A stretch of DNA of 64,000 nucleotides, taken from assembly GCF_000010305.1 (NCBI RefSeq), contig NC_012489.1, forward strand, positions 1,488,001-1,552,000, written 5' to 3'. The translations under genes and the position numbers were made by a program. A model generated the notes under the pieces. It saw only the letters and a program-made list of their open reading frames with translations. It had not been told where the DNA came from and searched no databases. The first letter of the stretch is position 1; each line of letters begins with the position of its first letter. The DNA comes from Gemmatimonas aurantiaca T-27 (GTDB lineage Bacteria; Gemmatimonadota; Gemmatimonadetes; Gemmatimonadales; Gemmatimonadaceae). Shown here in pieces: positions 2,984 to 13,083 of the stretch.

Positions 2984-3697
2984 ATGCGGTTTTTGCAGCG
3001 TTTTGCCCGATGGTCCAGACAGCGGTCACGGCCGTGGGTCCTGCTTCTGATCTGCGCGTTGCCGCTCGCCACGATGGCATTCCGTGGTCCGGGTCGCCTT
3101 GCGATCGCGCGCCTGCAATACGAGGGCGGCGGCGACTGGTACGGCAATCCGTCCAGCCTGCCCAACCTCATCAAGGCCATCGCGGATCGCACCTCGCTCC
3201 CCATCGAGCGCACCGAAGCGAAGGTCAAGCTCACCGACTCCGCGTTGTTCGACTACCCGTTCCTGCACATGACGGGGCACGGCGAGGTGAAGTTCTCCGA
3301 TACCGAAGTCCAGCGCCTGCGCGAGTACCTCACGCGCGGCGGCTTCTTGCATGCCGACGACAACTACGGACTCGATGACACGTTCCGCCGCGAGATGGCG
3401 CGCGTGTTTCCCGATCGCCCGTTGGTCGAGGTGCCGTATTCACACCCGATCTACCATCTCGTCTACGATTTCCAGAACGGGCCGCCGAAGGTGCACGAAC
3501 ATGACGGCAAGCCCGCCAAGGGGTATGGCATCTTCATCGGCAACCGCTTGGCGGTCTACTACACCTTCTCGGCGGATCTCGGGAACGGGTGGGAAGACGT
3601 CGGAACGTATGCCGATCCGCCAGTCCTGCATGAACAGGCCCTGCGCCTGGGTGTGAACCTCTTCACGTACGCGGCCACCAGCCGCGTGCTGCCATAG
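2984..3697 (+). CDS. DUF4159 secreted/membrane-anchored protein
   Basis: The 237-aa product starts with an Arg-rich n-region and a hydrophobic helix (about residues 18-33, PWVLLLICALPLATMAF), then a DUF4159 domain. Characteristic pieces are the ALFDYPFLHMTGHG strand, EVQRLREYLTRGGFLHADD, and PYSHPIYH. DUF4159 has a class-I glutamine-amidotransferase-like fold but no known enzyme activity; the family often travels with MoxR, DUF58 and DUF4175 genes. It is 31 bp upstream of the giant DUF4175-like gene and is the first gene of a four-gene cluster ending at 10550. Confidence 0.85.
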   Translation: MRFLQRFARWSRQRSRPWVLLLICALPLATMAFRGPGRLAIARLQYEGGGDWYGNPSSLPNLIKAIADRTSLPIERTEAKVKLTDSALFDYPFLHMTGHGEVKFSDTEVQRLREYLTRGGFLHADDNYGLDDTFRREMARVFPDRPLVEVPYSHPIYHLVYDFQNGPPKVHEHDGKPAKGYGIFIGNRLAVYYTFSADLGNGWEDVGTYADPPVLHEQALRLGVNLFTYAATSRVLP

Positions 3698-3728
3698 TCC
3701 TCCTCGAGCAGACGAGAGCAAGCCAGGC

Positions 3729-6700
3729 ATGACCGCACCAGCGTTGCGCATGAATGGAGGGCTGCCAAACGGCGCCGCGGGATCGACGCTCGCTGCCCGG
3801 TTGTCGGGTGAGCAACGGGCGCTGCAATGGCGCGCGATGAGCGGCGTGTTCACGGTGACCGTGGCGGTGCTGTTGGCCGTACTGGCACTGCTCGTACTCG
3901 CATTGGGCGATGGTCGCTGGATGACCTGGCCGCGTGCCGTGCCGGTTCTCGGTTGGCTGGCTGCCCTCGGGGGCGCGGCCTTCGTGGCCCGCTGGCGTCG
4001 TCAACGCCACACTCACGCGCTCTCCGTGGCGGCACTGGCCGGTACGATCGAGCGGGAGCAGCAGTTGCGTTCGGGGTCGTTGCGCGGCGCGCTGGAAGTG
4101 GCATCCAGTGGTCCCCTCGGCGCACGGGCGGCGCAGGACGTGGCGGCACGATTGACCAACGGCCCTCTGGCCCCCAACGCGGCACGTGCCTTTTCGAAGC
4201 AGGCGCTGATTGGTGCGGGTTTGGCGGTTGGTGGATTGTTGATGGTCATCTCGGCGGCTCGGGTGTCGCCGGATGGTCTCGCGGCCGTGCAGCACCCGGT
4301 CCGTGCCTGGACCGGCACCCTGTTGCCGGCCATGGCGTTTGAACGCGTGCCCACCAGTGTGCCGCGTGGCATGCCGATCACGCTGAACATCGTGGCGTCT
4401 GGCCGGAGTGAAGTGGTGGTCTCTCGCCGTGCCGAAGGCGAAGCATGGCGCGATACCACCCTCACCGTGCCCGCGTCGGGTGTGGTGCCTTTTGCGCTGG
4501 GCCCCGTGCGTGCGCTCACCCTCGTTCGTGTGAACGATGGGCGGGCGCCGGAGCTTTCCGCACAGCTCGTGGTGGAAGACCGTGGTTGGATCGGTGACGT
4601 GGCGTTGCGCGCGCAGTATCCGGGTTACCTCGGCCGAGCCGACGAAACCTTGGAGCCGGTGCCGCCTCTGCGCGTGCCGCGCGGCACCCGTGTACATGTG
4701 CATGTCACGCTGCGTGGTGGTGCGCGTGAGGCATTCCTGACAAACGGCCGCGATACCATCGCGCTCGGTGCGTCGACCGCTACCGGGAAGGACGTGGTGC
4801 CGGCCACCGGAGCCATCGTCATCGATCGCGATGAGCAGTGGCGCTGGGGGGCCTCGGCCACGCCGCGTGCGGATGGCGCGGTGCTGCCACCCGAACTTCC
4901 CGATGCCCTGCCGTTCACCATCATCCCCGACATGCCACCCTCGGTGAGCATCGTGGCGCCGGTGACGGATACCGCGATCGGTCCGACGGGTTCAGTGCCG
5001 GTCATCGTGATGGCGGGCGACGATCATGGCGTGGGGCGCATTCATCTGCAGGTGTGGCGCGAAGCCGCGTCCGGATTGGGTACGGTGACACGCCAGCGCA
5101 TCGATGTGGCGGCTCCGGGTTCACCGCTGTTCGAAGGTGGCACCACCCTCACGCTCGATGGGCGTTCCCTCGAACCGGGCGACAAGCTGCATGTCACCGC
5201 CGTGGCGACCGACGATTCGCCGTGGCATCAGCAGTCGCAGAGTGCAGAAGTCATTCTGCGGGTACCCACACTGGCCGAGCAGCGCGCGATTGCCCGCGCG
5301 ATGGCCGACTCTCTGGCCGCGCAGGCCCAGCAGCTCGCACAGCAGGAACGTCGCCTGCAGCAGTCCACCAGCGACGCGTCGAAGAGCCGCGACCTGCAGT
5401 CCAACAGCAACGAGCAGTCGGGTGGCTCCAAGAGTGATGGGGCAAAGAGCCAATCGATGACGTTCTCGGCCGCCGAGAAGGCCAAGCAGTTGGCGCGCGA
5501 GCAGCAGCAGCTTGGTGCCAGAGTCGATTCGCTGCGTCAGAACGCCAAGGAGCTCGAGTCGCGTCTCAAGAATGCCAACGCCCTCGACACCTCGTTGGCG
5601 GGGCGCATGCGCGACATCCAGAAGATGTTGCGCGATGCCATGACACCCGAGATGCAGAAGCAGCTCGAGGCCCTGAACAAGAGCACCGATCGGTTGAGCG
5701 GTACGGAAGCGCAGCAGTCGATGCAGCAACTGTCGGAACAGCAGAAGCAGATGCGCGAGCAACTCGAGAAGAGTGCCGAGATGCTCAAGCGTGCCGCGCT
5801 CGAAGGGGCGATGCAAACGTTGCGGGATGATGCCCGCGATCTGGCGAAAGCGCAGCAGCAGTTGGCGAACCAGCTCGATGGCAAGCCTCGTCAGGGTCAG
5901 CAGCAAGCAGGCCAGCAACAAGCGGGCGAGCAGGGCACCCAACAGGGCAAGCCGCAGCAGGGCGCGTCGCAGGATCCGCGTTCGCTGGCCGAGCAGACCA
6001 AGCAGATCGAACGCGAAGTGGAGTCGTTGGCCAAGCGGTTGCAGGAGTCGGGCGCGCGCGAAGGCGCGACCAAGACGCGTGAAGCGCAGCCGATGGTGAA
6101 TCAGGCCGCCGAGGCCATGCAGAAGGCGGCGCAGCAACAGGCGCAGCAGCGCGCACAGGAGCAGGCCCAGCAGCGCGAGCAGCAGATGGCGCAGCAAGGG
6201 CAGCAGGGCCAACAAGGGCAGCAACAGGCCGGGCAGCAGGGCAAGCCGCAGGGGCAACAGCAAGGCCAGCAAGGCCAGCAAGGCCAGCAGGGCCAGCAAG
6301 GCCAACAGGGCCAACAGGGCCAGCAAGGCGGCCAACAAGGTGGTCAGCAGGGCCAACAGGGACAGCAGGGCGGTCAGCAGGGCAATCCCGGGGATCAGGC
6401 CCGTCGCGCGGCCGACGCCATGGACAAGGCGGCTCAGCAGCTCGCCGCGGCGCGTGATGCCCAGGTCAGCGAATGGAAGGGTGAGCTGTCTGATCAGCTC
6501 GACCAGTCCATCAACGAGACCATGCAGTTGGCCCGTCAGCAGTCAGACCTCGAGCAGCGCATGCGACAGGGGCAGGGCGGTCAGGGTCAGCCCGGGCAGC
6601 AGGGACAGCAAGGCATGCAGGGTGAGCAGAGTGCCCTGCAACAGGGTGTGCAGCAGGCCGCCGAGCGTCTGGAGAAGGCGGGGCGCACGTCCTCGTTGTT

Positions 6701-7436
6701 GTCGCAGCGCTCGCAGAAGGCCATGGGCGATGCACAGCGCCGCGTGCAGCAGGCCACACAGGCGATGCAGCAACAGGGGCAGCCGGGCGGCAATGAGCAG
6801 GCCCAGAACGCCATGAAGGACGCGGCCGAGGCGCTCAATCAGGCGCTCAGTTCGCTGGTGCGCGATCGTGAAAAGGTGAACGGCGCGCAGTCCGCGTCGG
6901 GCTTCCAGGAGATGATGGAGCAGCTCAAGCAGCTCGCCCAGCAGCAGGGGCAGCTCAACAGCCAGATGCAGGGGCTGAACATGATGCCGGGCGGTGCCAA
7001 GGGGGATCAGGCGCAGCAGCAGGCGCGTGTGCTGGCGCGGCAGCAACGTTCGGTGGCGCGCGATCTGATGGATGTGGCCGACGCCGATCAAACGGGCCGC
7101 ACCGATGCGCTCGCGCGCGAAGCGCAGACGTTGGCGCAGCAGATCGAGCGCAGTGGTATCGATCCCAACACGGCCGCGCGTCAGCAGCAGCTCTATCGTC
7201 GTTTGCTCGACGCCGGTCGCTTTCTCGAGCAGGACGAGCGTGATGACCAGGGGCCGCGTGAAGGGAAGGCGGCCAATGGCAACGGTTCCACCGGTCGTGT
7301 CGATGGCGCGCAGTCTGGTCGTGCGGCGAACAAGTTTGCACCGCCGACCTGGAACGAACTGCGCGGACTCGGCCCGGAAGAGCGACGCATCGTCATCGAG
7401 TACTTCCGCCGACTCAATGTCAGCGCGCCGCAATGA
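3729..7436 (+). CDS. Giant DUF4175-like membrane protein with Gln-rich coiled coils
   Basis: This 1235-aa protein has three predicted membrane helices (about residues 38-59, 70-88 and 156-177), then a roughly 330-residue beta-rich Ig-like region (to about residue 505), then some 700 residues of Gln/Ala/Arg/Glu-rich heptad sequence expected to form coiled coils. The coiled-coil part is broken by a low-complexity Gly-Gln-Gln tract at about residues 842-885. Topology suggests a large periplasmic stalk. It resembles DUF4175 proteins of the TIGR02302 type; function unknown. Its end overlaps the start of the TPR gene by 20 bp, so the two are translationally coupled. Confidence 0.8.
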   Translation: MTAPALRMNGGLPNGAAGSTLAARLSGEQRALQWRAMSGVFTVTVAVLLAVLALLVLALGDGRWMTWPRAVPVLGWLAALGGAAFVARWRRQRHTHALSVAALAGTIEREQQLRSGSLRGALEVASSGPLGARAAQDVAARLTNGPLAPNAARAFSKQALIGAGLAVGGLLMVISAARVSPDGLAAVQHPVRAWTGTLLPAMAFERVPTSVPRGMPITLNIVASGRSEVVVSRRAEGEAWRDTTLTVPASGVVPFALGPVRALTLVRVNDGRAPELSAQLVVEDRGWIGDVALRAQYPGYLGRADETLEPVPPLRVPRGTRVHVHVTLRGGAREAFLTNGRDTIALGASTATGKDVVPATGAIVIDRDEQWRWGASATPRADGAVLPPELPDALPFTIIPDMPPSVSIVAPVTDTAIGPTGSVPVIVMAGDDHGVGRIHLQVWREAASGLGTVTRQRIDVAAPGSPLFEGGTTLTLDGRSLEPGDKLHVTAVATDDSPWHQQSQSAEVILRVPTLAEQRAIARAMADSLAAQAQQLAQQERRLQQSTSDASKSRDLQSNSNEQSGGSKSDGAKSQSMTFSAAEKAKQLAREQQQLGARVDSLRQNAKELESRLKNANALDTSLAGRMRDIQKMLRDAMTPEMQKQLEALNKSTDRLSGTEAQQSMQQLSEQQKQMREQLEKSAEMLKRAALEGAMQTLRDDARDLAKAQQQLANQLDGKPRQGQQQAGQQQAGEQGTQQGKPQQGASQDPRSLAEQTKQIEREVESLAKRLQESGAREGATKTREAQPMVNQAAEAMQKAAQQQAQQRAQEQAQQREQQMAQQGQQGQQGQQQAGQQGKPQGQQQGQQGQQGQQGQQGQQGQQGQQGGQQGGQQGQQGQQGGQQGNPGDQARRAADAMDKAAQQLAAARDAQVSEWKGELSDQLDQSINETMQLARQQSDLEQRMRQGQGGQGQPGQQGQQGMQGEQSALQQGVQQAAERLEKAGRTSSLLSQRSQKAMGDAQRRVQQATQAMQQQGQPGGNEQAQNAMKDAAEALNQALSSLVRDREKVNGAQSASGFQEMMEQLKQLAQQQGQLNSQMQGLNMMPGGAKGDQAQQQARVLARQQRSVARDLMDVADADQTGRTDALAREAQTLAQQIERSGIDPNTAARQQQLYRRLLDAGRFLEQDERDDQGPREGKAANGNGSTGRVDGAQSGRAANKFAPPTWNELRGLGPEERRIVIEYFRRLNVSAPQ
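6252..6383 (+). repeat. 9-bp coding minisatellite (Gly-Gln-Gln units)
   Basis: Roughly a dozen imperfect tandem copies of a 9-bp unit close to GGCCAGCAA, with third-position variants (CAG/CAA, GGC/GGG) and two inserted Gly codons. All variants keep the reading frame of the DUF4175-like gene. Such arrays change copy number by slippage in multiples of 9 bp, which would lengthen or shorten the linker without a frameshift. Confidence 0.85.
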
Positions 7437-9237
7437 GCCAGCGCGTCGCCGTGGCCTAGCGCTCGGCGCATGTGTCGCGCTGGCGCTCGCGGCGGCGTGC
7501 GCGACACCGGTGTTGGCACAATCCGGAGGCACGGCCACCGCCACCTTCTCCGCCGCAGACACCACCGACGCCCTGTCCCGGGCGATGGATGCCGAGGACA
7601 AGGGCGAGTTCAAGCGAGCGGGGACGGCCTATCGCGAGGTGCTGCAAAAGGCACTCTCGGTGACGCAGATCGATGGGGATCGCATCGCGCTGGCCATGCT
7701 GGGATTCGAACGCGTGATGTCGGAGCAGGGGCAGCTCGATTCCATCGTTCCGCTGGCCGAACGCGTGTTGCAGTTCCGTCCAACGGATCCCACCGCACGC
7801 ACGGTGCTGCTGCGCACGCTCACTTCGATGGCGCGCGACGACGACGCCCGTGCGGCCTTTCTGGGATGGCGCCGTGCCAGTCCAGGAGACGCGGCGCCCT
7901 ACCGCGAGTACGCGCGTCTGTTGCTGCAGCGTGGTCGTACACTGGCCGCTGATTCGATACTTGGTGATGCGGCGCGATTGTTGGGGCGCAACGCCGCGCT
8001 CTCGGGAGAGACCGCGCAATTGAACGTGTCGCTCGGCCGATGGGAGGCGGCGGCGCGATCCTATCGGGACGCGCTGACCAATCAGCCGTGGCTGGAGACG
8101 GCCGGCGTGTATGGACTGCAACGCACACCGGTGGCCGCCCGCGATTCCGTGCGCGCCGTACTCGCCGCGGATCCGGCGTCGCTGCGTCCGCGGCGCTTGC
8201 TGGCGTCGCTCGAATCAGCCTGGGGCGAACCCCGGCGCGCCTGGGCGGCTCTGAGTGTCCTGCCGCCCGATGATTCCACGCTCGCCGCATGGCGCGAGTT
8301 TGGTGAACATGCCGAGCAGGCGTCGTCGTGGCTCGTGGCGCGCGATGCCTGGAGTGCGATCTTCGCGCGCAATGCCGGTTCCCTCGAAGCGCAACGCCGC
8401 GCCGCCGATGCGGCGTTGCGGGCCGGCGACGCCGCAGGGGCGCTCACCTTGCTGCGTGCTCCGTCCACGGCAGAAGAACGCGCCCGCAAACAGGCGCTGC
8501 TCGGTCTTGAAATCGCGGCCCTCGGCGAACTGGGGCGCATGGCCGATGCCCAGGCGTTGCTCGATCGCGAAGGCAAGGCGCTCGATCTGACGACCCGTGC
8601 GGCCATCGCGCGGCCACTGGTGATGGGGTGGCTGCGCGCCGGCGATCTGCCGCGAGCCCGAACCGCGATGGCGGGCACCGATCTCGAAGAAGATGACGAG
8701 ATGGTGGGCTGGATCGCGCTCTACGACGGTGACCTTGCCACCGCACGCAAACGCCTGGTGCGTGCTGCATCACAGCGAACGGAACTGGTGGATGCGCTGG
8801 GCCTGTTGGCGCGCATTCGGCTGGATCGTTCGCCCACCCTTGGCGCCGCGTTTCTGGCCATCGCGCGGCGCGATTCGGCAAAGGCGGCGACGATGCTGGT
8901 GACGCTGGCCGATTCGGTCGGGCAGGCGGCACCGGCAGTGTTGGCACACGCGGCACGTCTGATGCCACCGAACAATGCGCCGAAGTTGTGGGACCGCATC
9001 GTGCGCGAGTATCCGAAGAGTCCGGAAGCACCGGAGTCGTTGCTGGCCTGGGCGCGCGTGCTGCGCGATGCCGGTGATCGTCCGGGGGCGATCGCCAAGC
9101 TGGAGCAGATGCTCGTGGAATACACCAACAGCGCGCTCGCTCCGCAGGGACGTCGCGAACTGGAACGTCTCAAAGGGCAGGTGCCACCGGCAGGTTCGGC
9201 CGGCAGCACGCTGGCGCCCGTGTCTAGATTCCCATGA
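7417..9237 (+). CDS. Exported TPR-like repeat protein
   Basis: The 606-aa product begins MSARRNEPARRRGLALGACV and has a typical signal peptide ending near ATPVLAQ-SGG (residue 35). The rest is a helical solenoid rich in Ala, Arg, Leu and Asp with repeated helix-turn-helix pairs such as LSRAMDAEDKGEFKRAGTAY and SLEAQRRAADAALRAGDAAG, as in tetratricopeptide proteins; the C-terminal YPKSPEAPESLLAWARVL is a recognisable TPR-like unit. No enzymatic motif is seen. The start lies inside the end of the DUF4175-like gene (20-bp overlap) and the stop overlaps the next start (ATGA), so it is probably a partner protein made in fixed ratio with its neighbours. Confidence 0.8.
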   Translation: MSARRNEPARRRGLALGACVALALAAACATPVLAQSGGTATATFSAADTTDALSRAMDAEDKGEFKRAGTAYREVLQKALSVTQIDGDRIALAMLGFERVMSEQGQLDSIVPLAERVLQFRPTDPTARTVLLRTLTSMARDDDARAAFLGWRRASPGDAAPYREYARLLLQRGRTLAADSILGDAARLLGRNAALSGETAQLNVSLGRWEAAARSYRDALTNQPWLETAGVYGLQRTPVAARDSVRAVLAADPASLRPRRLLASLESAWGEPRRAWAALSVLPPDDSTLAAWREFGEHAEQASSWLVARDAWSAIFARNAGSLEAQRRAADAALRAGDAAGALTLLRAPSTAEERARKQALLGLEIAALGELGRMADAQALLDREGKALDLTTRAAIARPLVMGWLRAGDLPRARTAMAGTDLEEDDEMVGWIALYDGDLATARKRLVRAASQRTELVDALGLLARIRLDRSPTLGAAFLAIARRDSAKAATMLVTLADSVGQAAPAVLAHAARLMPPNNAPKLWDRIVREYPKSPEAPESLLAWARVLRDAGDRPGAIAKLEQMLVEYTNSALAPQGRRELERLKGQVPPAGSAGSTLAPVSRFP

Positions 9238-10550
9238 TGTCCATGATTCTCTCCCGATTCAGGTGGCGGCGCTGGCCGTCCGGGTCCACGCTGCTGCGGC
9301 ACGCCTTCGCCGTGTTGTTCGTCGCTTTCTCGGCGCGGTCGGCGGCGGCGCAGCACTTGCTGCTGCCCATGGACGACGCACAGCGCAATCACCTCAAGGC
9401 CTACGGCGTCACCTACTCTGCGATCAAGGGTGGGCAGAAGGCGGAGTGGTTGCTGAACTATCGCGGCGGGGCCTTCCTGTTGCCCGATGTGCCCGATCTG
9501 CGCAAGCGCGCCGCGCTCGATGGGGTGTCGGTGGAAGCCATGACGGATGCCGATGTGGCGGCCGCACGGGCCGAGATCGCCGGTGGAAACATGGACGCGG
9601 TCGTGCTCGAGCGGGCGCCGCGCATTGCCATCTATCGCCCGGTGGATCAGCCACCCTGGGATGATGCGGTCACCCTGGCGCTGACGTATGCCGGCATCGA
9701 GTTCACGTCGGTGTGGGACGACGATGTGATGAAGGGCGATCTGTCGAAGTACGATTGGGTGCACCTGCATCACGAAGACTTCACAGGCCAGTACAACAAG
9801 TTGTATCTCGCCTATCGCGACGCCCCCTGGTTTGTCGCGCAGCGCGAACGTGACCTGGCCACGGGGCGCCGTTTCGGCAAGAACGACATCCCCGGTCTCA
9901 AGAAGGCCGTGGCCGACAACATTCGTGGCTTCGTGGATCGTGGGGGGTTCCTGTTTGCGATGTGCGGTGCCACGGAGTCGCTCGATCTGTCCATCGCCTC
10001 GTTGATGGTGGATATCGCCGGACCGTTTTCCGACGGCACACCACCAGCCCCTGATGCCGACGCGAAGCTCGACTGGACGCGGACGCTCGCCTTTGCCGGT
10101 GCGCATATCGAGCCGTCGCCGTATGTGAACGCACTCAGCGACATCGACGGGCATCAGGTGAACGTGCCGTCGCGCCGGCAGCCGCTGGGCACGTTCACGC
10201 TCTTCGGGTTCAGTGCCAAGCTCGATCCGGTGGCTACCATGCTCGTGCAGGATCATCGCACGGTCATCACCGACTTTTATGGCGTGACCACCAGCTTCAA
10301 TCGTGCGGTGGTGAAGCCCGGCGTGACGGTGCTCGCGCAGGAAGAAGGCGCGCCGTGGACCAAGTATCTGCACGGCGACTACGGCAAGGGATCGTGGACG
10401 TTCCTGGGTGGACACGATCCGGAAGATCCGCAGCACGCGATCGGCAGTGCGCCCACGGATTTGTCGCTGCACCCGAATTCGCCGGGCTACCGTCTCATCC
10501 TGAACAACGTTCTCTTCCCGGCCGCCAAGAAGAAGCCGCGCAAGACGTGA
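9234..10550 (+). CDS. Secreted conserved protein with amidotransferase-like fold (family often mislabelled asparagine synthetase B)
   Basis: The 438-aa product has a signal peptide ending near SAAAQ (residue 39), followed by HLLLPMDDAQRNHLKAYG and EWLLNYRGGAFLLPD, which I recognise from a family in Bacteroidota and Gemmatimonadota databases call asparagine synthetase B. No ATP-pyrophosphatase or Ntn-glutaminase domain of real AsnB is visible, so that name should not be trusted. The NIRGFVDRGGFLFAMCGATE segment parallels the YLTRGGFLHADD segment of the DUF4159 protein, suggesting a related GATase-like fold. It overlaps the TPR gene by 4 bp and ends the cluster. The start could be either ATG at 9234 or the Met three codons later. 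Confidence 0.75.
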   Translation: MMSMILSRFRWRRWPSGSTLLRHAFAVLFVAFSARSAAAQHLLLPMDDAQRNHLKAYGVTYSAIKGGQKAEWLLNYRGGAFLLPDVPDLRKRAALDGVSVEAMTDADVAAARAEIAGGNMDAVVLERAPRIAIYRPVDQPPWDDAVTLALTYAGIEFTSVWDDDVMKGDLSKYDWVHLHHEDFTGQYNKLYLAYRDAPWFVAQRERDLATGRRFGKNDIPGLKKAVADNIRGFVDRGGFLFAMCGATESLDLSIASLMVDIAGPFSDGTPPAPDADAKLDWTRTLAFAGAHIEPSPYVNALSDIDGHQVNVPSRRQPLGTFTLFGFSAKLDPVATMLVQDHRTVITDFYGVTTSFNRAVVKPGVTVLAQEEGAPWTKYLHGDYGKGSWTFLGGHDPEDPQHAIGSAPTDLSLHPNSPGYRLILNNVLFPAAKKKPRKT

Positions 10551-10560
10551 CCGACCAGTC

Positions 10561-13083
10561 GTGACCATGGGTGAAGCGCGGCTGGCCAAGGCGGCCGCCG
10601 CGGCGATACGCACGCAGATCACGTTGCATGGGGGCAATGAGGTCTGTTTTGTGTGCGCAGTGGATGCTGATGGTGTGCTGATCAGCGCACGCAAGGTGGC
10701 GGCGGGTGATGTGAGCAGTGTGCTCGCATTGCCTGGTGTGGCGGAGCGCGGCGAGATGTTGCTGCACAATCACCCGTCCGGTGATCTCACGCCCAGTGAC
10801 GCCGATATGGAAGTGGCGTTTCGCCTGCACGGCAATGGCGTGGGCTTCGGCATCGTCAACAACCAGGCCACGCGGGTGTACGTCGTGTCCGAGGTGCCAC
10901 GGGGCAAGCAACTGGTGCCCGTGGATCCGGACGTCGTCGATGTGACGCTCGGACCGTACGGCCTCGTCGCACAGGCCATGCGCGGCATGTATGGCATACG
11001 CGACTACGAGGACCGCCCCAGTCAGCGTGCCATGGCCACGGCCGTGACCACCACGTTCAACGAGGGTGGTGTCGCACTGCTCGAAGCGGGCACCGGCGTC
11101 GGCAAGTCGCTGGGCTATCTCGTGCCCGCCCTGCGCTGGGCCGCCGCCAATGGCGAGCGCACGGTGGTGTCGACCGCCACGATCACGCTGCAGGAGCAGC
11201 TCGTGGCGAAGGACCTGCCGTTCCTGCAGCGGGCGCTGTCCGACCAGCCCGTGCGTTTTGCGCTGCTCAAAGGGTGGCGCAACTATCTCTGCCTCAATCG
11301 GCTGGCCGCAGCGCAGGGCGCGGGCGCGGCGTTGTTCGATGACAATGTCAGCGACGACGTGGCCATGATCGCCGAATGGGCGTCGCGCACCAAGGACGGT
11401 TCACTGGCAGATCTGCCCACCGCACCCCGCGGTGAAGTGTGGGATGAGGTCTCGGCGGAGCCCGATTTGTGCGGGCGCATGAAGTGCGAGCACTACAACG
11501 ACTGTTTTCTGTTCAAGGCGCGCAAGGAAGCTGCGGCCGCCGATGTGGTGGTGGTGAATCATCACCTGCTGCTGTCGGACGTTGCGGTGCGTCGTCAGGT
11601 GCAGAACTGGGAAGACTCGGCCGTGCTGCCGGCGTACAAACGCCTCGTGATCGATGAAGGGCATCATCTCGAAGAGGCCGCCGGCTCGCACCTGGGCAGC
11701 TCCATCACGCGCCGGGCGCTGTCGCGTCTGTTCAACCGGCTCGAGCGTCGTGGCAAGGGATTGTTGCCCACGCTCGCCGCCAAGTTGTCGGGCAAGAACG
11801 ACCTGCTCAGCGTGGCCAGCATGGACCTGCTGCGCGAAGGACTGTTCTCCAGCGTGCTCACCGCGCGCGATCGCACACAACTGCTGTTTGAATTGCTCGC
11901 CGCCGTACTCGAGCAGCAGGGTGGGGGCGTGTTGCGGTTGACGGAGTCGTTCCAGGAGCATGATCTCTGGCGCAACGGCATCGGGGACACGCTGAAGGAA
12001 TTGCTCAATGAGATCGACGCCATCGCCAAAGGACTCGCGATGGTGCAGACCAGACTGGAAAGCGATCAGTCGCGTCTCGAAGAGCTGTCGTCCACCGTCA
12101 ACGAGATCCGTGGCGTCACGCGCCGGCTCCAGAATGCGGGTGATGCCCTGATGAAGGGACTCATGCCACCCGCTGATGGACCGGCTGTGGTGCGCTGGAT
12201 GGAGTTTCAGGGCAAGCCCACACCACATGAGCGCAATCTCGCCGTGCACTGTGTGCCGCTCGACCTGGCCCCCGTGCTGCGCGACGATTTGTTCGGACGG
12301 GTCGAGACGGCGGTGGTCACCAGTGCGACACTCTCCACCGATGGTGGCTTCCAATTTCTCGAGCGTCGTCTGGGGCTCGCGGGAAGCACCAGCCCCGTTC
12401 GCGCGGCCATCTTTCCGTCGCCCTTCGACTATCCGCGGCAGGCGCTGCTGGTGGTGCCAACCGACTTGCCGGCGCCCAATGAACAAGCGCGTGAACACTT
12501 CGCCGGTGTCACACGCCACCTGCACGACCTGGCGCACGCCAGCGACGGCGGCCTGTTCGGACTGTTCACCAGTCACCGCGATGTGCGCGAGATGGCCGAA
12601 TGGATGCGTGGGCAGGGGTTGAGCGGCCGATGGCCCCTGCTCGTGCATGGAGAAGAGCCACGCGATCAGTTGTTGCAGCGTTTCCGCGAATCGGGGCGGG
12701 CCATTCTGCTGGGCACGGCCACGTTCTGGGAAGGCATCGATGTGCCGGGTGACGCGTTGCGTGGATTACTCATCGCCAAGCTGCCCTTTCGTGTACCCAC
12801 TGAACCCATTGTGGCTGCGCAGTGCGAAGCCATCGATGCCCGCGGCGGCAATGCCTTCGTGGAGTACATGCTGCCACACGCCTCGTTGCGTCTCAAACAG
12901 GGCTTCGGTCGACTCATTCGCACGGCCACCGATGCCGGTGTGGTGGTCTTGAGTGATCCCCGCGTGGTGACCAAGCGCTACGGTCGTGCCTTGCTCAATG
13001 GCCTACCGCCCGCACAACGCGTGATCGGCGCGTGGGGTGATGTCCGGGGACAGGTGTCAGCGTTCTACCGGAGCGCGCGGTAA
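10561..13083 (+). CDS. JAMM (RadC-type) domain fused to DinG/XPD-family Fe-S helicase
   Basis: Residues about 1-112 form a JAB/MPN domain with the RadC-type metal motif H69-x-H71-P-S-G followed by P78-S79 and D82, and a Glu at 27 in the expected place. From about residue 140 onward it is a superfamily 2 helicase of the DinG type: Walker A EAGTGVGKS (175-183), DEGH box (VIDEGHHLEEAA), and four cysteines (one in NYLCLN, three in CGRMKCEHYNDC) that would hold the XPD-like iron-sulfur cluster; C-terminal motifs GTATFWEGIDVPG and KQGFGRLIR are intact. DinG unwinds D-loops and R-loops 5' to 3'. The start may be GTG 10561 or ATG 10567. It begins 10 bp after the preceding cluster. Confidence 0.9.
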   Translation: MTMGEARLAKAAAAAIRTQITLHGGNEVCFVCAVDADGVLISARKVAAGDVSSVLALPGVAERGEMLLHNHPSGDLTPSDADMEVAFRLHGNGVGFGIVNNQATRVYVVSEVPRGKQLVPVDPDVVDVTLGPYGLVAQAMRGMYGIRDYEDRPSQRAMATAVTTTFNEGGVALLEAGTGVGKSLGYLVPALRWAAANGERTVVSTATITLQEQLVAKDLPFLQRALSDQPVRFALLKGWRNYLCLNRLAAAQGAGAALFDDNVSDDVAMIAEWASRTKDGSLADLPTAPRGEVWDEVSAEPDLCGRMKCEHYNDCFLFKARKEAAAADVVVVNHHLLLSDVAVRRQVQNWEDSAVLPAYKRLVIDEGHHLEEAAGSHLGSSITRRALSRLFNRLERRGKGLLPTLAAKLSGKNDLLSVASMDLLREGLFSSVLTARDRTQLLFELLAAVLEQQGGGVLRLTESFQEHDLWRNGIGDTLKELLNEIDAIAKGLAMVQTRLESDQSRLEELSSTVNEIRGVTRRLQNAGDALMKGLMPPADGPAVVRWMEFQGKPTPHERNLAVHCVPLDLAPVLRDDLFGRVETAVVTSATLSTDGGFQFLERRLGLAGSTSPVRAAIFPSPFDYPRQALLVVPTDLPAPNEQAREHFAGVTRHLHDLAHASDGGLFGLFTSHRDVREMAEWMRGQGLSGRWPLLVHGEEPRDQLLQRFRESGRAILLGTATFWEGIDVPGDALRGLLIAKLPFRVPTEPIVAAQCEAIDARGGNAFVEYMLPHASLRLKQGFGRLIRTATDAGVVVLSDPRVVTKRYGRALLNGLPPAQRVIGAWGDVRGQVSAFYRSAR

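Follow-up and report, generated by a model that had tools for sequence, protein, structure and literature searches.

The four-gene cluster and its proteins

A 64,000-nucleotide stretch of the Gemmatimonas aurantiaca T-27 genome (NC_012489.1, positions 1,488,001 to 1,552,000; hereafter the window) carries a cluster of four forward-strand genes for envelope proteins. They encode a DUF4159 protein, a long DUF4175-related membrane protein, a tetratricopeptide repeat (TPR) protein and a 438-residue protein called P438 here. Functional coupling of DUF4159, the long DUF4175 protein and P438 is well supported. One functional unit is well supported because the gene order is conserved, because DUF4159 and P438 are kept or lost as an all-or-none pair even when unlinked, and because the first and last proteins have a common fold. 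The four genes are listed with the evidence for each assignment, which includes AlphaFold2 (AF2) models and occurrence in other phyla of the Fibrobacterota-Chlorobiota-Bacteroidota (FCB) group.

2984..3697, + strand: DUF4159 protein, 237 aa, predicted to be exported, class I glutamine amidotransferase (GATase)-like fold without a Cys nucleophile (Pfam PF13709, AF2 model)
3729..7436, + strand: DUF4175-related predicted inner-membrane protein, 1235 aa (Pfam, profile A4, hydropathy)
7417..9237, + strand: predicted exported TPR protein, 606 aa (Pfam TPR_19, hydrophobic segment 14-32, TPR beside P438 in other FCB phyla)
9234..10550, + strand: P438, 438 aa, predicted to be exported, class I GATase-like domain at aa 127-433 (AF2 model, fold matches)

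The positions of the open reading frames and the spacings along DUF4159-DUF4175-TPR-P438 given in an earlier note on this DNA (31 bp, -20 bp and -4 bp) were exact on re-check. The reading frame of the TPR gene is already open from 7072, and 7417 is the start that yields the export signal. The end of RsmI lies 17 bp upstream of the DUF4159 gene and the start of a DinG-like helicase lies 10 bp downstream of P438. Spacing alone therefore does not set the boundary of the four-gene cluster. The co-directional run around the cluster also takes in thioredoxin (Trx), RsmI and the DinG-like helicase. None of the four proteins was named by NCBIfam above its cut-offs.

Export signals had been proposed for three of the proteins. 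Hydrophobic export segments were found in DUF4159 (aa 19-37) and in the TPR protein (aa 14-32), the latter also matching Pfam TPR_19 over the cut-off. The P438 N-terminus itself falls below the hydropathy threshold, and it is the homologues of P438 that carry clear signal peptides. In one Gemmatimonadota family, P438 begins with a twin-arginine translocation (Tat)-like MKRRxFL start (L067, L068, L070, L089, L099 and L102), and Sec-type signals are seen in other lineages. The Tat-like signals would be compatible with folding before export.

The 1235-aa protein scored 17.0 bits against Pfam DUF4175 (PF13779), whose cut-off is 27.3, and thus falls outside formal membership. Its homologues at two other loci (L128 and L121) exceed this cut-off with 51.6 and 71.4 bits, and a profile built from such DUF4175 homologues (A4) gave E=1.6e-104 for the window protein. 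By these scores the protein is DUF4175-related, not a formal DUF4175 member. It consists of three N-terminal helices, an immunoglobulin (Ig)-like region, a long helical and low-complexity region, and a conserved C-terminal tail. The three membrane helices noticed earlier were borne out by hydropathy (aa 40-58, 69-87 and 159-177), and comparable positions were found in most homologues compared. The positive charges flanking the helices are on the sides that fit a periplasmic C-terminus. The very long coiled coil that had been proposed was retained in part: the long helical region is present, but a (Gly-Gln-Gln)n tract and further low-complexity segments interrupt it, so that the coiled coil is not continuous.

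6258..6371, + strand: (Gly-Gln-Gln)n repeat in the helical region of the 1235-aa protein (Tandem Repeats Finder, period 9; GXY run at aa 846-869)

Gene order and co-occurrence across genomes

Gene order in Gemmatimonadota was surveyed at 32 loci around P438. The order Trx-RsmI-DUF4159-DUF4175-TPR-P438, often followed by DinG, is retained in most of class Gemmatimonadetes. In family f7 the DUF4159 gene lies outside the cluster, and in family f9 P438 is apart from the rest. When named genomes were scanned, P438 homologues of about 50% identity turned up in Neomarinimicrobiota, Eisenbacteria, Zixibacteria, Calditrichota, KSB1, Cloacimonadota, Chlorobiota, Balneolaceae and Bacteroidota. The order DUF4159-DUF4175-TPR-P438 appears again in Neomarinimicrobiota (L114, L128 and L155), in an FCB bacterium (L119) and in KSB1 (L136); one locus (L121) has DUF4159-DUF4175-P438, and other loci have TPR-P438. 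The outer neighbors of the cluster differ in these other phyla. In Flavobacteriia the genes are scattered, with P438 near dnaB, DUF4159 near tsaD and an rRNA methyltransferase, and DUF4175 near ybeY and mnmG. The recurrence of the four families together, on which the earlier note had made its proposal depend, therefore holds as a gene order in Gemmatimonadota and several FCB phyla but not in Bacteroidota. The conservation of the order across phyla indicates that the cluster is not a chance arrangement.

The firmest evidence comes from comparing, genome by genome, the presence of P438 and of the orthologous DUF4159. Among 150 Gemmatimonadota genomes, 132 carry both, 15 carry neither, two have P438 only (G042 and G090) and one has DUF4159 only (G130); the three genomes with a single gene are fragmented draft assemblies of 290-620 contigs. 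Among 198 Bacteroidota genomes, whose two lists were matched by hand, P438 and the DUF4159 orthologue occur in the identical 143 genomes, 55 have neither, and none has one alone. P438 is thus present in 134/150 Gemmatimonadota and 143/198 Bacteroidota. The two genes are mostly on different contigs or far apart in Bacteroidota, so their co-occurrence is not due to linkage. A DUF4159 orthologue of 44-55% identity was also found in 26 of 28 further genomes picked for having P438. The two classes of DUF4159 separate cleanly by score: no orthologue falls below 149 bits, and no other paralogue in the pair-lacking genomes exceeds 87 bits.

Pfam DUF4175 was too insensitive for scoring presence, and a profile of full-length members was therefore used. 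With this profile the long DUF4175 protein was found in 26/27 pair-bearing and 0/20 pair-lacking Bacteroidota genomes, and a full-length match was found in 9/10 pair-bearing and 0/15 pair-lacking Gemmatimonadota genomes. The genomes compared for co-occurrence are not independent samples, and Fisher values overstate the significance. The pair is absent from members of several Gemmatimonadota families; in genus g65, genome G119 has both P438 and DUF4159 and genome G124 has neither. The lineages without the module include the 55 of 198 Bacteroidota and, in Gemmatimonadota, genera g3, g4 and g13 and family f6. Aerobic respiration was considered as the cause of the pattern and rejected: the heme-copper oxidase gene COX1 (PF00115) is present in most module-lacking genomes and missing from some module-bearing ones.

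These patterns bear on the simplest alternative, in which four old housekeeping genes are neighbors by chance and have no functional link. The position of the cluster inside the longer co-directional run would agree with it. It is contradicted by the perfect co-occurrence in Bacteroidota despite unlinked genes, by the joint loss in several Gemmatimonadota lineages, and by the reappearance of this order in other phyla, where the outer neighbors are different. This explanation is considered highly improbable.

The neighboring helicase (10561-13083) is DinG/YoaA-like and has a RadC-like JAB domain at its N-terminus (Pfam PF04002, above the cut-off), a fusion that is unusual. Judging by alignments that extend from residue 16 on, this fusion appears to be retained in most of class Gemmatimonadetes.

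Fold and candidate active site of the first and last proteins

Membership of the first protein in DUF4159 (PF13709) is clear, with E=2e-67 and 227 bits against a gathering score of 25.9. Its AF2 model has a predicted local distance difference test (pLDDT) score of 86 and matches the solved family member 4i66 (Hoch_4089) with Z 26.1. The same model matches the class I GATases HisH (1kxj, Z 10.6) and Pdx2 (Z 9.8), as well as ThuA-like 1t0b (Z 9.3), gamma-glutamyl hydrolase 1l9x (Z 8.3) and IFT52 (5fmr, Z 9.6).

P438 has no Pfam match and no NCBIfam family, and a sequence comparison with the PDB gave just weak PII hits (E at least 0.1). Its AF2 model has a pLDDT of 91.3. An extra N-terminal domain precedes the GATase-like domain at aa 127-433, which matches ThuA-like 1t0b (Z 12.4), MetA 7cbe (Z 11.7), Pdx2 2nv2 (Z 11.2) and the accessory domain of a GH42 protein, 5xb7 (Z 13.0). 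The name "asparagine synthetase B" has been used for Bacteroidota homologues of P438. This name was not borne out, since no class II GATase or Asn-synthase match was found with Pfam or NCBIfam for the window protein or for its Flavobacterium homologue (L134). A literature search on "asparagine synthetase B" in Bacteroidota returned one transcript list (PMC9478572), whose entry is not shown to be the P438 gene.

According to the models, DUF4159 and P438 have a common class I glutamine-amidotransferase fold. The shared fold that the earlier note had expected of the first and last proteins held, with matches to structures of this fold at Z 11-12.4 for P438 and Z 9-10.6 for DUF4159, and the GGFL-type strand is real in both proteins (GGFLHADD and GGFLFAMC). 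Homology between the two at the sequence level was rejected: profile comparison aligned a 15-column GGFL segment alone, with a probability of 20%. The relation between P438 and DUF4159 rests on the fold, because the profiles align over the GGFL segment only. The motifs of the two proteins that bear on a possible active site are as follows.

3338..3361, + strand: GGFLHADD motif of DUF4159, aa 119-126, at the strand-helix junction equivalent to the P438 Cys site
9762..9779, + strand: HLHHED motif of P438, aa 177-182, with H177, H180, E181 and D182 invariant in 109/109 sequences
9963..9965, + strand: Cys244 codon of P438, candidate nucleophile (elbow position, Cys in 109/109)
10413..10427, + strand: His394-Asp-Pro-Glu397-Asp398 of P438, candidate catalytic His and acid, invariant in 109/109, after strand 386-391

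Class I GATases have a canonical GxCxG nucleophile motif and a catalytic Cys-His-Glu triad. In the P438 model, Cys244 occupies the nucleophile-elbow position, where strand 239-243 gives way to helix 245-255. All 109 sequences have Cys here, and nearly all of them have small residues at both -2 and +2. The residues His394, Asp395, Glu397 and Asp398 are each invariant in the same 109. The elbow reads A/T/G-M-C-S/T/G-A/G across these sequences, and GxCxG was not found. The Cys at the elbow and the invariant His and Glu suggest that P438 is a candidate cysteine-hydrolase-like protein. At the corresponding elbow DUF4159 has an invariant Asp-Asp where P438 has Cys, and it has neither the Cys nor the His of P438 at the corresponding sites. 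DUF4159 would thus be a pseudo-enzyme, or pseudo-GATase, partner. An enzyme-like P438 with a pseudo-enzyme DUF4159 is more likely than the two substrate-binding-like proteins proposed earlier.

Several points weigh against this interpretation and against the unit as a whole. The triad candidates in P438 were read from sequence and secondary structure; the elbow, A-M-C-S/G-A, departs from the canonical motif of class I GATases; and the acid follows the His at +3 instead of +2. The invariant HLHHED could instead signal metal binding, and the matched fold relatives include the non-catalytic domains of the GH42 protein and IFT52. Two genomes (G158 and G168) carry P438 and DUF4159 with no match to the long DUF4175 protein.

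Some of these points are also the grounds for a different explanation, in which the two GATase-fold proteins have binding or structural roles, the invariant Cys, His, Asp and Glu hold a metal or structural site, and the assembly serves as a scaffold or sensor. The non-enzymatic relatives (IFT52 at Z 9.6, the GH42 accessory domain at Z 13.0), the non-canonical elbow of P438, the lack of Cys in that of DUF4159, and the His/Asp-rich motifs of the alignments (HLHHED, GGHDPEDxxH, TGHG and HEHD) all favor it. It is opposed by the constancy of Cys244 in the 109 sequences while many other positions vary, and by its placement exactly at the strand-helix elbow with small neighbors, like the nucleophiles of the fold. 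The non-catalytic explanation is considered conceivable but rather doubtful.

Proposed mechanism and comparison with known systems

The reading preferred here, although tentatively, is that the genes encode a MoxR-less envelope module conserved in the FCB group, with the cysteine-hydrolase-like P438 and the pseudo-enzyme DUF4159 borne on a membrane stalk. The DUF4175 protein would be anchored in the inner membrane via its three helices, and its Ig-like and long helical parts would project into the periplasm as the stalk. The exported DUF4159 and P438 would dock onto this stalk, with the TPR protein as an adaptor where present. The enzyme of the module would be P438, as a cysteine amidohydrolase or an acyl-transfer enzyme in the periplasm, with DUF4159 positioning the substrate or a partner. 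Known hydrolases of the class I GATase fold cut gamma-glutamyl-type amide bonds, and the periplasm has no ATP to drive a synthetase. For these two reasons gamma-glutamyl-type amide bonds, for example in peptidoglycan stem peptides, appear the most plausible substrate; this is the weakest step of the mechanism and a guess. A broader proposal is offered with greater reserve: a core envelope machine of the FCB superphylum, whose stalk bears the paired P438 enzyme and DUF4159 pseudo-enzyme, might process a periplasmic amide substrate such as peptidoglycan and be inherited or lost as a unit despite the dispersal of its genes in Bacteroidota.

Alternatively, a MoxR-vWA chaperone whose genes lie elsewhere in the genome might have the module as its periplasmic arm, with MoxR, DUF58 and BatA remodeling DUF4175 across the membrane and DUF4159 and P438 acting outside. 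Five strong MoxR genes were counted in the G. aurantiaca genome, along with six matches to BatA and six genes for DUF4159 proteins, and DUF4159/DUF4175 paralogues adjoin MoxR, DUF58 and BatA in three clusters (L021, L022 and L025), whose DUF4175 proteins are over the Pfam cut-off. In L025 (G000:C1:3649317-3663658) a TPR protein and a GATase1_like protein are added, in the order GATase1_like-TPR-DUF4159-MoxR-DUF58-BatA/vWA-DUF4175, and the DUF4175 protein has 1263 aa and a collagen-like GQQ tract. This explanation is nevertheless thought unlikely: no MoxR, DUF58 or BatA hit, and hence no MoxR-vWA adjacency, was found in the 64-kb window or any fetched P438 locus, and in other FCB phyla, where DUF4159 and DUF4175 genes are unlinked, their surroundings showed none either, except for a weak BatA hit in L205. 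By eye, a pair resembling TldD/TldE (PmbA) adjoins the MoxR-DUF58-BatA-DUF4175 cluster of L022 (G000:C1:1188010-1197500), and another such pair is found some 7 kb upstream of the window (L029).

An exported P438 that is about 50% identical across phyla, occurs in most sampled Gemmatimonadota and Bacteroidota, and is tied to two envelope proteins points to a basic function without a described role. The all-or-none pattern across the superphylum is what makes the stalk module noteworthy. P438 is carried by Flavobacterium and Pedobacter, which opens its function to ordinary genetics. A role for the module would also inform the uncharacterized MoxR-linked DUF4159/DUF4175 clusters.

With gamma-glutamyl hydrolase 1l9x, the Pdx2/YaaE glutaminase, HisH, GatD and MetA, P438 has the fold in common, and like the class I GATase-fold hydrolases it has an elbow Cys and a following His. 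It differs from these hydrolases in its export, its extra N-terminal domain, its AMC(S/G)A elbow and the lack of a Pfam or PDB sequence match. The window DUF4159 has the family and fold of Hoch_4089 (4i66), and a literature search found no relevant paper on either DUF4159 or Hoch_4089. Its orthologue subgroup is tied to P438 and stands apart from the genome's other DUF4159 proteins, with 29% identity to the copy in L025.

AdvA of Acinetobacter baumannii, a division-site protein with two transmembrane helices, is the only characterized protein with a reported DUF4175 domain that the literature search found (PMC7481262). The passages on AdvA in that paper report no association with DUF4159 or P438.

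A survey of MoxR conflict systems (PMC7159879) makes no mention of DUF4159 or GATase-like partners. The cluster had been put forward as a candidate undescribed system. The set of genes kept or lost together points that way, but the families are not unique to the cluster, since paralogues of DUF4159 and DUF4175 occur in the MoxR-DUF58-BatA clusters, which in L025 also have TPR and GATase1_like proteins in common with the window. The window cluster differs from them in having no MoxR, DUF58 or vWA gene, and P438 has no sequence counterpart there. The four-gene cluster thus resembles the MoxR clusters in their membrane and periplasmic half, lacks the AAA+/vWA half and adds P438.

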